Under the pieces are notes generated by a model. That model was not told the origin of the DNA. It saw only the letters and a program-made list of their open reading frames with translations, and ran no database searches. From Gammaproteobacteria bacterium (lineage in GTDB: Bacteria > Pseudomonadota > Gammaproteobacteria > Thiomicrospirales > Thiomicrospiraceae), in NCBI GenBank assembly GCA_014763665.1, contig JACXUY010000010.1, forward strand, positions 1-42,137: a stretch of 42,137 nt of DNA. The letters are read 5' to 3'. Shown one piece after another: positions 2,365 through 11,151 of the stretch. A program made the translations under genes and the position numbers. Every line of letters starts with the position of its first letter. The stretch's first letter is position 1.

Positions 2365-3171
2365 CTAACTTGGCATAACAGATAGCATCACACTCCACAT
2401 AGGGCGTTTTGCTGTTGTGGGGTAGCTGCTGGTAGGAATGGGATTTATTTGCCTACAGACTTTCTCGGGCATAGCGTCAATGATCGTTTTGGCAAAATCG
2501 TACCAAGTGGTTTGCGCTTCTAACCCTGCTGTCAGGTGGTAAATACCCGATGTTGACTTGAGAGCTGCCAATGGCTGTTGTAAGAGCTTAACCGTATCAG
2601 CTGCTAAATCACGTGCATCGTTGGGAATACCGTGCTGATCGGCAACAATATTCAGCACTTCGCGCTCTTTGGCAAGGCGCTGCATGGTGCGGTAGAAGTT
2701 ATTACCATAATCTGGATGATACACCCAGCTGGTACGAAAAATAAGGTAATCACTGCCACTGTACTTGATGCCCTCTTCACCCATCAATTTGCTGTAACCA
2801 TAATAGTTAATGGGGTTGGGCGTGTCGGACGGTTCGTAGGGCGAGGTTTTGCTGCCATCAAACACATAGTCGGTCGAATAATGAATGAGTAAGGCACCGA
2901 TTTTTTTGGCTTCACTGGCCAAAATACTGGGGGCTGCGGCATTAATCAGGTAACAATTGACCTGATCGGTTTCGGCGTTATCGACCGCTGTGTAAGCAGC
3001 TGCATTGATGATGACATCGGGTTGATGCGCTTGAACCGCTTGAGCCACGGCATGAAGGTCGGTTAAGTCTAGTTCTTCTCGTCCTAGGGCAACCAGTTGT
3101 GCAATAGCGGGCAGTTGCTTCGCCAGTTCATAACCGAGTTGTCCATTTTTGCCAAGGAGAAGAATTTTCAT
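2365..3171 (-). CDS. rmlD: dTDP-4-dehydrorhamnose reductase, C-terminus apparently truncated
   Basis: 268 residues; the family is usually about 285-300. It is an SDR-fold enzyme that makes dTDP-L-rhamnose, the last step of the pathway. Visible are the nucleotide-binding start LLLGKNGQLGYEL, HYSTDYVFDG, the catalytic YGYSKLMGE (YxxxK) and FRTSWVY. The end is odd: after AKRPMWSVM the protein stops at LSVMPS, while another frame of the same DNA reads CDAICYAKLAP, closer to the family's usual 'NSVLDCxAI' continuation. A small indel near 2395 may have removed the last 20-30 residues. It overlaps rmlC by 4 bases (ATGA). The catalytic part is intact, so activity is still possible. Confidence 0.9.
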   Translation of the reverse strand: MKILLLGKNGQLGYELAKQLPAIAQLVALGREELDLTDLHAVAQAVQAHQPDVIINAAAYTAVDNAETDQVNCYLINAAAPSILASEAKKIGALLIHYSTDYVFDGSKTSPYEPSDTPNPINYYGYSKLMGEEGIKYSGSDYLIFRTSWVYHPDYGNNFYRTMQRLAKEREVLNIVADQHGIPNDARDLAADTVKLLQQPLAALKSTSGIYHLTAGLEAQTTWYDFAKTIIDAMPEKVCRQINPIPTSSYPTTAKRPMWSVMLSVMPS

Positions 3172-5892: not shown

Positions 5893-7179
5893 TTACAAAC
5901 TGCTTCGCCCCACCCCTTGGTAAATAAAGCCTTGATGACACATAACTTCGGGATCGTAAATATTGCGTCCATCGAACACTAAAGGGGTTTTCAATGCGGC
6001 TTTCAGTCGATCAAAATCAGGATTCCAATAGATTTTCCATTCGGTCATCAGCAGCAACGCATCGCTTTCTTGACAGGCAAGGTACTGGTCTTGGTAACAG
6101 CTTACCAAAGGATGGTGCGCATAACGTTGGGCAATGGCGGCAAGTGCTTTAGGATCGTGTACACGCACACTCACGCCTTGCGCTAATAAGGCATCAATCA
6201 GCCGCAAACTAGAAGCCTGCTCAATGGTGGCAGTATCTGGCTTGTATGAAGCACCCCATAAGGTGACCTGTTTGCCCACTAACTGACCATGGTAGTGCTG
6301 CCACAATTTGCTGAATAAAATTTCCTGCTGATCTTGATTGACCGCCAGTGCCGCTGGCAATAATCTCGGTGGTTGACCAAAAGCCTGAAAGGTCTTTTCC
6401 ATCGCTTGCAAGTCGGCCATAAAGTTAGGACCACCAAAACCAGCACCAGGATACAAATAATTGAAACCAATACGAGGGTCGGTGCCGATGCCTTGACGCA
6501 CCTGTTCTATATCGACACCCATTTTTTCGGCCAAATTAGCAAATTCATTCATCGCTGAAACGCGCAATGCTAATAGACTGTTAATGGCGTACTTGGCTAA
6601 TTCGGCGGCCGCTGGCTGCATCATCAGCATCATATCGCGCACACGATTGTAGGGCCGCAACAAATCACGCATGATTTCAATCGCCCATGAATGCGTGGCA
6701 CCAATAATAATCCGATCTGGACGCGAGAACTGGGCTATGGCACTGCCTTCGGACATAAACTCTGGCCACACCACCACAGCGGCTTCAACCTGTTGCGCTT
6801 GGACACGCGATTGATAGTAGGCAGCTCGCCCTACTCCCTGTAAGGTTTGAATGACCAACAGGCTTTTTGGTGCTAACCGGGGAATCAGTTGAGCCACCAG
6901 CTGTTCGGCCAATGCCAATTGCGCACTTTGCACGCTGAGAATATGAATGTGCGCTTTATCGATACAGGGGCATTCTAAACTGACTAAAAAGTGCAGGTTT
7001 CCCGCTTCGAGTTGTTGTTGCACCAGCGATTGCAAACCGCTTTGTTTGCTGGCTGTCTCTTGCCACTGCCAGGCATCGGGCGCATCAATGGGGTAAAGAT
7101 CAACACGATTACCATGGCTGGCTAAACTCGCCGCAGTGACTAAAGCAGGATAGTCGTGACCGTAAACAATTAGATTCAT
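5893..7179 (-). CDS. UDP-glucose 6-dehydrogenase homologue lacking the catalytic cysteine (probable pseudoenzyme)
   Basis: 428 residues, aligning by eye along the whole UDP-glucose dehydrogenase family: WPEFMSEGSAI, KYAINSLLALRVSAMNEFANL, VRQGIGTDPRIGFNYLYPG, LWGASYKPDT, LLMTEWK and VFDGRNIYDP. Key positions are changed. The active-site GGSCFPKD is GGPNFMAD here, putting Asn252 where the catalytic Cys should be and Ala255 where Lys should be. The NAD-binding GxGYxG near the N-terminus is GHDYPA, so its second and third glycines are Asp and Ala. NPEFLREG is WPEFMSEG. The active-site Lys196 and Asn200 remain. The oxidation to UDP-glucuronate seems impossible; another redox reaction or a regulatory role is conceivable. 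It follows the small membrane protein with a one-base overlap (TAATG). Confidence 0.85.
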   Translation of the reverse strand: MNLIVYGHDYPALVTAASLASHGNRVDLYPIDAPDAWQWQETASKQSGLQSLVQQQLEAGNLHFLVSLECPCIDKAHIHILSVQSAQLALAEQLVAQLIPRLAPKSLLVIQTLQGVGRAAYYQSRVQAQQVEAAVVVWPEFMSEGSAIAQFSRPDRIIIGATHSWAIEIMRDLLRPYNRVRDMMLMMQPAAAELAKYAINSLLALRVSAMNEFANLAEKMGVDIEQVRQGIGTDPRIGFNYLYPGAGFGGPNFMADLQAMEKTFQAFGQPPRLLPAALAVNQDQQEILFSKLWQHYHGQLVGKQVTLWGASYKPDTATIEQASSLRLIDALLAQGVSVRVHDPKALAAIAQRYAHHPLVSCYQDQYLACQESDALLLMTEWKIYWNPDFDRLKAALKTPLVFDGRNIYDPEVMCHQGFIYQGVGRSSL

Positions 7180-7379
7180 TAACCAAATAACTTCAACAAA
7201 ATGACAACAGATAAACCAATATTAAAGCCAACCATCCATTTCAGTAAGGTTAGCTCTGACTCAACCTTATTGAAACGACTCTCATAATTGGCTAAAGATT
7301 CAACAGCTTTCTTGGCTTTTACTTCCGTTGCACCAGCATCTTTTAGGGCATCATAAACTTCAAAAATCATTGTGCTCAT
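7179..7379 (-). CDS. Small coiled-coil protein with C-terminal membrane segment (DUF1640/CCDC90-like)
   Basis: 66 residues. The N-terminal helix reads IFEVYDALKDAGATEVKAKKA, the style of bacterial DUF1640-like proteins; a heptad-rich middle (ESLANYESRFNKVESELTLLK) is followed by a single hydrophobic segment (about residues 47-65: WMVGFNIGLSVVILLKLF). It is probably an inner-membrane protein that oligomerises through the coiled coil. The function of the family in bacteria is not established. It overlaps pgi upstream (ATGA) and the dehydrogenase homologue downstream (TAATG), so it is translationally coupled to both. Confidence 0.75.
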   Translation of the reverse strand: MSTMIFEVYDALKDAGATEVKAKKAVESLANYESRFNKVESELTLLKWMVGFNIGLSVVILLKLFG

Positions 7380-9007
7380 GGCTGGTTCTCTCCTGATTGT
7401 TTGAGTAATGATAACACCGCTCGCGTGGCTGAATCAAAATCTTGCACAGTACCGGTTCGCATGGCTTGCAAGGTATGTACTGCAATCTGTTTACCCAATT
7501 CTACGCCCCATTGATCGAAGGGATTGATATTCCATAACATGGCTTCAACAAAAGTTTGATGCTCGTATAAGGCAATGAGCGCACCGAGCGAGCTGGCGTC
7601 GAGCTGGTCCAGCAAAATCGTATTGCTGGGCTGATTTCCGGCATAATGTTTGTGAGCATCACTAGGTGGCGTGGCTAAGGCCGCATCTCCTAACATCAAC
7701 ACAGTTGATTGCGCCAACAAATTCGCCAAGGCAAGCTGATGCTGGTAAGCCAGTGCTTCTCGCGTCGCCGGGTCGGAGGCTTGCACGATATCGGGACGTG
7801 TTAAGGGGGCAATAAAGTCGCACATCACCGCTTCGGTTCCTTGGTGCAACAACTGATAAAAGGCGTGTTGCGCATTGGGACCTACCTCTCCCCAGACAAT
7901 CGGGCAGGTGGCATAATTCAAGGGTTGCCCCGCTCTATCCACACTCTTACCATTAGATTCCATAATTAACTGCGTTAAATAAGCAGGCAACAGGGCTAAA
8001 CGCGCATCGTAAGGCAAAATGGCTTTGCCATGAATACCCAAAAAGTTACGATTCCACACAGTGGCTAAGGCCAGTCGTACTGGCATATTATCTGCCCATG
8101 CACTATAGCGAAAATGCTGATCCATTTGATTAGCACCCGCTAACAGTTGTCTAAAACCCTGCATACCAATGGCAATGGCAAGGGTAATACCAATGGTTGA
8201 CCAGAGTGAATAGCGCCCACCAACCCAGTCCCAAAATTGCAATTGATGATCCAGATGAATGCCAAATTCGCTCATTTTAGCGACATTAGCCGATACGCCA
8301 ATAAAATGCTGTTGATAAGCTAATTGTTTAGAAGCGCCGTGTGCAATTAACCACTCTAATGCTGTTTGCGCATTAGCAAGGGTATCGACGGTGGTAAAGG
8401 TTTTACTGGCAAAGACAAACAGGGTTGTATGCGGATTGAGTTGTTTCAATAACGAGGCCGTTTTGGCACCGTCCATACTGGATAGGTAATGAATACCAAT
8501 GTGAGTATCTTTGAGATGTTGCAACGCACTGACTGCCAAATTCGGCCCTAGATCCGAACCACCCACCCCTAAATTAACGACGTCGGTAATGGCGCGCCCA
8601 CTAAAACCCCGCCACTGACCAGCTCGGATTTTATCGACCAAGCCTTGCATACGCGTGAGTTGCGCTTGAATATCCGTCCATTGGCTGGCATCGCTTAGTT
8701 CATCTGCCGTTTGCGCTCTTAAAGCGGTATGTAAAGCAGCCCTACCCTCGGTATGATTAATGGTCACACCCCTGAACAATTGCTCGATAGAGACTGCCAA
8801 CTGTTGCTGATCGGCTAGGGCATAAAGATAGTTCCAGGTATCTGGCAGTATGCGTTGTCTGGCTAAATTGAGCGTGATACCTGCTGCGCTAAGCTGGTCT
8901 CGCTCTCCCCGCTCAGGATCTTGGGCAAAGATACGACTTAAATGCAGTGAACGCACAAGCGTAGCATGTTCGGCTAAATCGACCCATGCGGGGGTTTGGG
9001 TAAGCAT
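7376..9007 (-). CDS. pgi: Glucose-6-phosphate isomerase
   Basis: 543 residues, normal for bacterial Pgi. Visible are VNLGVGGSDLGP (phosphate binding), FVFASKTFTTVDTLANA, FWDWVGGRYSLWSTIG, the signature MESNGKSVDRAG, and WGVELGKQIA near the end. It interconverts glucose-6-P and fructose-6-P, linking glycolysis to the sugar-nucleotide genes around it: glucose-1-P for GalU and RmlA, fructose-6-P for ManC. It starts 4 bases after the remnant of the frameshifted DUF1640-like gene and overlaps the next small gene by 4 bases. Confidence 0.98.
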   Translation of the reverse strand: MLTQTPAWVDLAEHATLVRSLHLSRIFAQDPERGERDQLSAAGITLNLARQRILPDTWNYLYALADQQQLAVSIEQLFRGVTINHTEGRAALHTALRAQTADELSDASQWTDIQAQLTRMQGLVDKIRAGQWRGFSGRAITDVVNLGVGGSDLGPNLAVSALQHLKDTHIGIHYLSSMDGAKTASLLKQLNPHTTLFVFASKTFTTVDTLANAQTALEWLIAHGASKQLAYQQHFIGVSANVAKMSEFGIHLDHQLQFWDWVGGRYSLWSTIGITLAIAIGMQGFRQLLAGANQMDQHFRYSAWADNMPVRLALATVWNRNFLGIHGKAILPYDARLALLPAYLTQLIMESNGKSVDRAGQPLNYATCPIVWGEVGPNAQHAFYQLLHQGTEAVMCDFIAPLTRPDIVQASDPATREALAYQHQLALANLLAQSTVLMLGDAALATPPSDAHKHYAGNQPSNTILLDQLDASSLGALIALYEHQTFVEAMLWNINPFDQWGVELGKQIAVHTLQAMRTGTVQDFDSATRAVLSLLKQSGENQP

Positions 9008-9265: not shown

Positions 9266-10129
9266 TTAATACTTATTCATTGAGGAAATCAATTGTGAAA
9301 ACGCCTCGCCCAGTTCGGGATGGCGCTTGGCAAAGGTAAGGGTTGCCGCTAAATAACCTAATTTATCGCCACAATCATGCACTTCACCATCGAAGACAAC
9401 ACCGCGCATTGTCTCTTTGTTCAATAACGCGTGCATGGCATCAGTGAGCTGAATTTCGCCACCCACTCCGCGCTGAGTTTGGGCTAATTCAGCAAAAATG
9501 CTGGGCGTAAATAAGTAACGTCCCAAAACAGCCAGATTCGATGGCGCTTGTTCAATGTTTGGCTTTTCAATGAGTTGCGTTATTTCGCTGTTATGATTTA
9601 AGCCAGCGATACCATACTTAGTTACCGCACTTGGTTCAACAGCTTGCAATGCAATACTGCTGACCTGATGGTGAGCAAAATCCGCTACCAACTGGGCCGT
9701 CGCATTGCGTTGTCTGTGGTAACAAATGACATCGGGCAACAATACGGCAAAGGAATTATCTTGCACAACAGGTGCAGCACAAGCCACGGCATGACCCAAG
9801 CCAAGGGCTTTACCTTGACGCACAGACACTAACTTCATGCCCTGTGGCAAGGTATTGCGCGCCAGCCCTAATAACGTCAGCTTGTTTTTCAACTCTAACT
9901 CAGTTTCGAGTTCAAATTGTCGATCGAAATGGTTTTCTAAACTCGGCTTGGCTGCATGAGTGACCAACACAACCGTATCAATTCCCGCTTCGTAGGCTTC
10001 TTCCACCACATATTGAATGAGTGGTTTATCGACTAAGGTCAGCATTTCTTTGGGCATGGCTTTGGTTGCCGGTAAAAAACGCGTTCCTAAGCCCGCAGCA
10101 GGTATAACAGCAAAGTTAACTGACATCAT
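9266..10129 (-). CDS. galU: UTP-glucose-1-phosphate uridylyltransferase
   Basis: 287 residues from the ATG at 10127-10129 (or the next ATG 3 bases on), which overlaps the galE stop as TAATG. A start 18 codons further upstream is possible but would lie wholly inside galE. Signature: FAVIPAAGLGTRFLPATKAM, then PKEML, LPDVICY, IEKPNIEQAPSNLAVLGRY and GGEIQLTDAM. It makes UDP-glucose from glucose-1-P and UTP. Together with GalE it provides UDP-glucose and UDP-galactose for surface glycans and would feed any UDP-glucose dehydrogenase. Confidence 0.96.
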   Translation of the reverse strand: MMSVNFAVIPAAGLGTRFLPATKAMPKEMLTLVDKPLIQYVVEEAYEAGIDTVVLVTHAAKPSLENHFDRQFELETELELKNKLTLLGLARNTLPQGMKLVSVRQGKALGLGHAVACAAPVVQDNSFAVLLPDVICYHRQRNATAQLVADFAHHQVSSIALQAVEPSAVTKYGIAGLNHNSEITQLIEKPNIEQAPSNLAVLGRYLFTPSIFAELAQTQRGVGGEIQLTDAMHALLNKETMRGVVFDGEVHDCGDKLGYLAATLTFAKRHPELGEAFSQLISSMNKY

Positions 10130-11151
10130 TATATTTCTAGTCCATTGGGATTCATGGATTGCCAACGCCAACTGTCTGCGCACATTTGTGCTAAATCACG
10201 CTCTGCTTGCCAGCCCAATAGCTGCTGAGCACGCTGTGCATTAGCGTAAACACAAGCGACATCACCAGCACGACGATTAACAATCTGGTAGGGCACCGTT
10301 TTACCACTCGCTTGCTCAAATGCTTGCACTACTTGCAGTACCGAATAGCCTTGTCCTGTACCTAGGTTAATCGGCGTGACTTGATCGTCACAATCGGTTT
10401 GCATCAGCTTTCTTAACGAAGCCAGATGTCCTTGAGCCAAATCAACCACATGAATATAGTCACGCACACCAGTACCATCGATGGTATCGTAATCACCACC
10501 AAAAACAGACAGCTTTTCACGACGACCGACAGCAACTTGGCTAACAAAAGGCATCAAGTTATTCGGTATGCCATTGGGGTCTTCACCAATCAACCCGCTT
10601 TCATGTGCACCAACGGGATTGAAGTAACGCAGTAAATGTACCTTCCACCCTGCTTCACTTTGCCCTAGGTCGCGTAGGATGTCTTCTATCATCAACTTAC
10701 TTCGTCCGTAGGGATTGGTTGCCGACAGCGGAAAATCTTCTGACACAGGAACACTGGCAGGATCACCATAAACCGTCGCTGATGAACTGAACACCAAAAT
10801 TTTAACGCTGGCATCACGCATGGCGTTTAATAATACCAGCGTACCATTAACGTTATTGTCATAATACTTAAGCGGCTGGGCGACTGACTCACCGACTGCC
10901 TTAAGTCCAGCAAAGTGAATCACCGCATCGATACTGTGTTGACTGAAAATACGCGCCATGGCATCAGCATTACGAATATCGGCCAAGACAAACTCCGGTT
11001 CAATGCCGGTGATTTGCTCAATACGACTGAGCACCCCTGCTTTGGCGTTGCACAGATTATCGGCAATCACCACATGATAGCCTGCTTGTTGCAAAGCGAT
11101 CACGGTGTGCGAACCAATATAACCCGCCCCGCCGGTAACGAGAATGCTCAT
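10129..11151 (-). CDS. galE: UDP-glucose 4-epimerase
   Basis: 340 residues, standard GalE length. Extended-SDR features: [15 protein letters not shown] at the N-terminus, VIHFAGLKAVGESV, FSSSATVYGDP, YGRSKLMIEDIL (YxxxK) and YFNPVGAHESGLIGEDPNGIPNNL, whose NPVGAH and IGEDP parts bind the substrate. It interconverts UDP-glucose and UDP-galactose with bound NAD. It lies 14 bases after grxD and runs into galU. Confidence 0.97.
   Translation of the reverse strand: MSILVTGGAGYIGSHTVIALQQAGYHVVIADNLCNAKAGVLSRIEQITGIEPEFVLADIRNADAMARIFSQHSIDAVIHFAGLKAVGESVAQPLKYYDNNVNGTLVLLNAMRDASVKILVFSSSATVYGDPASVPVSEDFPLSATNPYGRSKLMIEDILRDLGQSEAGWKVHLLRYFNPVGAHESGLIGEDPNGIPNNLMPFVSQVAVGRREKLSVFGGDYDTIDGTGVRDYIHVVDLAQGHLASLRKLMQTDCDDQVTPINLGTGQGYSVLQVVQAFEQASGKTVPYQIVNRRAGDVACVYANAQRAQQLLGWQAERDLAQMCADSWRWQSMNPNGLEI

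Follow-up and report, generated by a model that had tools for sequence, protein, structure and literature searches.

A UDP-glucose dehydrogenase homologue without catalytic cysteine or NAD site, conserved beside galU in Gammaproteobacteria

The long-type bacterial UDP-glucose 6-dehydrogenases (BceC of Burkholderia cepacia, 2y0e; the P. gingivalis enzyme, 3gg2; UgdG, 4a7p; TuaD) share their full-length fold with the protein described here, which we call pUgd. Eighteen residues are invariant among NDP-sugar dehydrogenases and their roles have been assigned (PMC4794789): in the known enzyme NAD is contacted by Gly9, Gly12, Asp29 (adenosine ribose), the loop carrying Thr83 and Arg327 (NAD pyrophosphate), and the UDP-sugar by Lys204, Gly257, Arg244 of the other subunit and Lys320, the last of which binds the diphosphate of UDP-glucose in the S. 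pyogenes enzyme. Two further systems are relevant. GlmR (YvcK) of Bacillus subtilis binds UDP-GlcNAc and stimulates GlmS, an action blocked by UDP-GlcNAc (PMC7525490), and bacteria thus do use the logic of UDP-sugar-binding regulators. Its likeness to pUgd extends to the proposed logic only, that of a UDP-sugar binder tuning an early enzyme of its own sugar's synthesis; GlmR is a separate protein likened by description, and for pUgd we infer both ligand and target. GalF of enterobacteria, a nearly inactive GalU paralogue (PMC4643126), resembles pUgd in being related to an enzyme of the UDP-glucose pathway and retained despite weakened catalysis, but derives from GalU and not from UDP-glucose dehydrogenase. 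A partial search of the literature returned no relevant account of a Cys-less or pseudo UDP-glucose dehydrogenase.

The window, a 42,137-nucleotide stretch of gammaproteobacterial DNA, encodes pUgd on the minus strand (5893..7179), with the ATG start codon at 7179 and an open frame of 428 aa. The N-terminal, central and C-terminal Pfam UDPG_MGDP_dh domains were matched at 50, 99 and 83 bits, respectively, each above cut-off, and TIGR03026 (‘nucleotide sugar dehydrogenase’) at 231.6 bits (cut-off 189.8), so routine annotation would name the protein a dehydrogenase. The AlphaFold2 model (pLDDT 94, pTM 0.89) aligned with UDP-glucose dehydrogenases across its full length; the closest structure was 3gg2 (Z 48.5, 413 residues, 1.6 A), 2y0e scored Z 47.8, and the long-type structures as a group gave Z values of 46–48.5 over 413–425 residues at 31–36% identity. 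Three Pfam domains above cut-off and a common fold, including an intact C-terminal domain, place pUgd within the NDP-sugar dehydrogenase superfamily. The UDP-sugar contacts are common to pUgd and the long-type enzymes, from which pUgd differs in having no catalytic Cys, NAD motif or NAD loop, an altered NPEF motif and another operon.

Site-by-site comparison was performed between 96 distinct sequences of the pUgd clade and 76 canonical sequences, divided by the Cys residue; a tree built without the motif columns gave the same division. S. pyogenes numbering was carried onto pUgd by motif, and this mapping is our own. The changes listed by an initial sequence-only reading (Asn252, GHDYPA and WPEFMSEG in an open frame of 428 codons, with the active-site Lys and Asn and the C-terminal domain kept) are all present. 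The catalytic position (S. pyogenes Cys260) is occupied by Asn252 (6424..6426, minus strand) within GGPNFMAD (residues 249–256). Cys was found there in 76/76 canonical sequences and 0/96 clade members, so that the motif loss is more than chance; N, S, A, H, Y, T and others, never C, occur instead, also in the lineages found later. The Rossmann motif GxGYxG is replaced by GHDYPA (residues 7–12; 7144..7161, minus strand): Gly9 has given way to Glu, Asp, Thr and others in 99% of the clade (Asp9 in the window's copy) and Gly12 to Ala in 67% (Ala12). Asp29 has become mostly Pro (Pro30 in the window), and WPEFMSEG (residues 138–145; 6745..6768, minus strand) stands in place of NPEFLKEG. Two losses go beyond those first listed, namely deletion of the NAD/nicotinamide-ribose loop carrying Thr83 (GTPP.EDGS) in at least 93% of the clade, including the window's copy, and replacement of the NAD-pyrophosphate Arg327, mostly by Asp or Glu (Glu320 in the window).

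The UDP-sugar contacts present the opposite picture. Lys196 (Lys204; 6592..6594, minus strand), Arg236 (Arg244, other subunit), Gly249 (Gly257), Gly250 (Gly258) and Lys313 (Lys320; 6241..6243, minus strand) are kept in 100% of the clade, the roles of the two lysines being those given in PMC4794789, as are the loop-holding Asn219 and Asn287 (S. pyogenes numbering). With NAD contacts gone and UDP-sugar contacts fully retained over the clade, the NAD side of the protein was thus dismantled and the UDP-sugar side preserved. Of the features of a UDP-glucose 6-dehydrogenase, pUgd therefore lacks the catalytic Cys and the NAD site and has the UDP-sugar contacts. Judged from these residues, pUgd has almost certainly ceased to function as a dehydrogenase, and the earlier proposal that the protein would be unable to make UDP-glucuronate is strongly supported by the absence of both Cys and NAD site across an ancient clade. 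By analogy to known structures, pUgd would not bind NAD and likely does bind a UDP-sugar. That pUgd might still catalyze the first oxidation only (UDP-glucose to the 6-aldehyde), or use another cofactor, would fit the retention of the whole fold and, in the window's copy, of Asp256, Lys196 and Asn200; we nevertheless consider it very improbable, as the whole clade has lost the nicotinamide-ribose loop and the positions that contact NAD, which a missing Cys would not by itself require.

Residues peculiar to the clade have also appeared. Asn178, Phe289 and Trp293 are near-invariant in pUgd and variable in canonical enzymes, with the FxKxW pattern (Phe289/Trp293) holding in the lineages found later, and these new near-invariants argue for a gained function. 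Such a gain could be taken as a new non-oxidative activity on UDP-sugars (e.g. hydrolysis or transfer) that employs Lys196 and Asp256, kept in 100% and 91% of the clade, and dispenses with NAD and Cys. We regard this as unlikely: the site once held by Cys accepts many residues (N/S/A/H/Y/T), some lineages lack Glu140, some Asn200 and some Asp256, and no new catalytic-looking set of polar invariants was seen in the clade. Because Asp256, Glu144 and Asn200 are lost in a few sequences, the ligand may differ among lineages.

With the motif columns removed, all Cys-less sequences fell on one side of a single branch (100/100 support, all bootstrap trees), the stem of which measures 0.66 changes per site. 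Relatives were found in 58 of the 63 Thiomicrospiraceae genomes, and dN/dS between close pairs was 0.009–0.08, with the strongest constraint on the central domain. pUgd is thus a single ancient clade under purifying selection. The computable outcome that the sequence-only reading named as refuting, a variant found only in this genome and under relaxed selection, did not occur, given the relatives in many other genomes and the low dN/dS. Named carriers include Thiomicrospira, Thiomicrorhabdus, Salinicola, Halomonas, Marinobacterium, and Alcanivoracaceae and Methylococcaceae MAGs. The gene is present in most genomes of the Halomonadaceae (the family of genome G378, including Salinicola) and in further families of the same order, where Halomonadaceae presence was counted by identity to a Salinicola query, with the motif inspected in about 50 loci, and family names of numbered genomes were taken from named relatives. 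A class-wide census with the pattern GFGGPxFxxD recovered only part of the clade, since the motif varies within it. Real gene loss in the remaining five Thiomicrospiraceae genomes is not supported: one contig (G001) stops inside pgi just past galU, and the other four yielded no true galU either. Genome G003 has two copies on different contigs (L037 and L038; 61% and 76% to the query), which may reflect duplication or contamination (reported at 4%). The absence of textbook catalytic residues might also suggest gene decay or a faulty assembly; this explanation, to which we give practically no credence, is refuted by reading frames that stay intact in those relatives that were examined, by dN/dS values far lower than 1 and by the support for a single ancient clade.

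Three further family members are encoded in the window's genome. L001 and L002 resemble UDP-ManNAc-type dehydrogenases, and L003 is a short Ugd whose GYGGYCLPKD motif is intact; UDP-glucuronate can thus probably be made in this genome by a protein other than pUgd. An active-looking paralogue here and in most Halomonadaceae genomes, together with the dimeric nature of the family, would allow pUgd to be a catalytically inactive subunit, pairing with a canonical UDP-glucose dehydrogenase from another locus and regulating it. However, pUgd is the sole UDPG_MGDP_dh family member in four genomes, each of no more than two contigs (G005, G028, G064 and G067), where its role cannot be just that of partner to an active paralogue. 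The second Ugd of most other Thiomicrospiraceae examined is of a distant type, approximately 25–30% identical over part of the length, and pUgd is coupled to galU rather than to the paralogue, so we consider pairing of this kind decidedly improbable. Accordingly, of three roles suggested by the sequence-only reading, that of partner subunit to an active dehydrogenase is disfavoured by these four genomes and by the location of the canonical Halomonadaceae enzyme away from pUgd, whereas a UDP-sugar sensor or a non-oxidising partner of GalU/Pgi is the best-fitting candidate role.

In the window the gene order is galE-galU-pgi-(66-aa ORF)-pUgd, followed by rfbBACD and manC, with galE through pUgd on the minus strand. 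galE (UDP-glucose 4-epimerase; 10129..11151) is upstream of and overlaps galU (UTP-glucose-1-phosphate uridylyltransferase; 9266..10183), the true start of which is probably an internal ATG near 10129. Downstream are pgi (glucose-6-phosphate isomerase; 7376..9007) and the 66-aa ORF (7179..7379), which overlaps the stop of pgi and whose own stop overlaps the pUgd start (TAATG). These overlaps bear out the previously suggested coupling of pUgd to its neighbours. The 66-aa ORF has a charged, helical N-terminal part and a hydrophobic C-terminal stretch; it matched no Pfam family, and no counterpart was found at this position in the relatives compared, with a weak relative (33%) at L039:12474-12692. 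In the related genome G003, the space separating pgi from pUgd (L038:1368-2775) contains one HipA-like gene and one HTH gene. Farther along the cluster, rfbD (2365-3171, minus strand) is seemingly shortened or frameshifted at its C-terminus, ending RPMWSVMLSVMPS.

In nearly all loci across the clade, galU or a galU-pgi pair immediately precedes pUgd. The order is galU-pgi-pUgd in Thiomicrospiraceae, mostly galU-pUgd without pgi, often few or no bases apart, in Halomonadaceae, and galU-pUgd-pgi in the Alcanivoracaceae MAG. Only two of the listed pUgd loci, among which a few genomes appear twice, have neither galU nor pgi immediately upstream on the same strand. For canonical ugd, galU was nearby in only 2 of 76 loci, one on the opposite strand and the other also containing pUgd. 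One MAG, G070, carries an in-frame pgi-pUgd fusion (L203:3756-6587), a single case that differs by one base in an A-run from its relative G079, where the genes overlap out of frame. A canonical, Cys-bearing Ugd immediately follows pgi in G042 (L243) and also in L232, an order that may be ancestral and have given rise to pUgd. Adjacency to galU and pgi could therefore be a relic of an ancestral galU-pgi-ugd cluster rather than a sign of physical partnership.

We hypothesize, on the strength of the gene coupling and the one fusion, that pUgd regulates GalU and Pgi. pUgd keeps the fold of UDP-glucose 6-dehydrogenase and presumably its dimeric pocket for the UDP-sugar and, with NAD site and Cys gone, would bind UDP-glucose or a close UDP-sugar and not oxidise it. 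Its occupancy would then determine its action on the co-encoded enzymes, GalU first and Pgi where present, so that pUgd would be a regulatory or scaffolding subunit that senses the product and sets carbon flow from fructose/glucose 6-phosphate to UDP-glucose. That pUgd is a non-oxidising, UDP-sugar-binding pseudoenzyme acting on GalU/Pgi to tune UDP-glucose synthesis is a proposal we hold in even balance between belief and doubt. The fuller idea of an ancient, widespread and undescribed pseudo-dehydrogenase family acting as UDP-glucose sensor for GalU (and Pgi), with feedback coming from a dead downstream enzyme, is put forward tentatively, as possible but short of probable.

Many marine and sulfur-oxidising bacteria retain pUgd under strong selection beside the genes that make UDP-glucose, which suggests that its role is probably that of a sensor or partner and not of the annotated enzyme. 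Across many genomes of Gammaproteobacteria, automated models label it a nucleotide sugar dehydrogenase; predictions of UDP-glucuronate synthesis based on pUgd in Halomonadaceae and Thiomicrospiraceae would be wrong, and the four genomes with pUgd alone would be credited with a UDP-glucose dehydrogenase. pUgd also offers a clean example of an enzyme whose cofactor site was lost with its substrate site still under selection. If it does sense UDP-glucose, it would reveal what controls the entry of sugar phosphates into that compound in these bacteria.

Lastly, comparison of GalU proteins linked and unlinked to pUgd gave no convincing sequence signature, only weak positions confounded by phylogeny. 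In the order of G378, two GalU types were distinguished by their match to the Salinicola query, one extending to about residue 290 (mostly 55–60% identical) and the other to about residue 270 (∼45%), and most of the pUgd-bearing genomes among those listed for the order have the longer-matching type.
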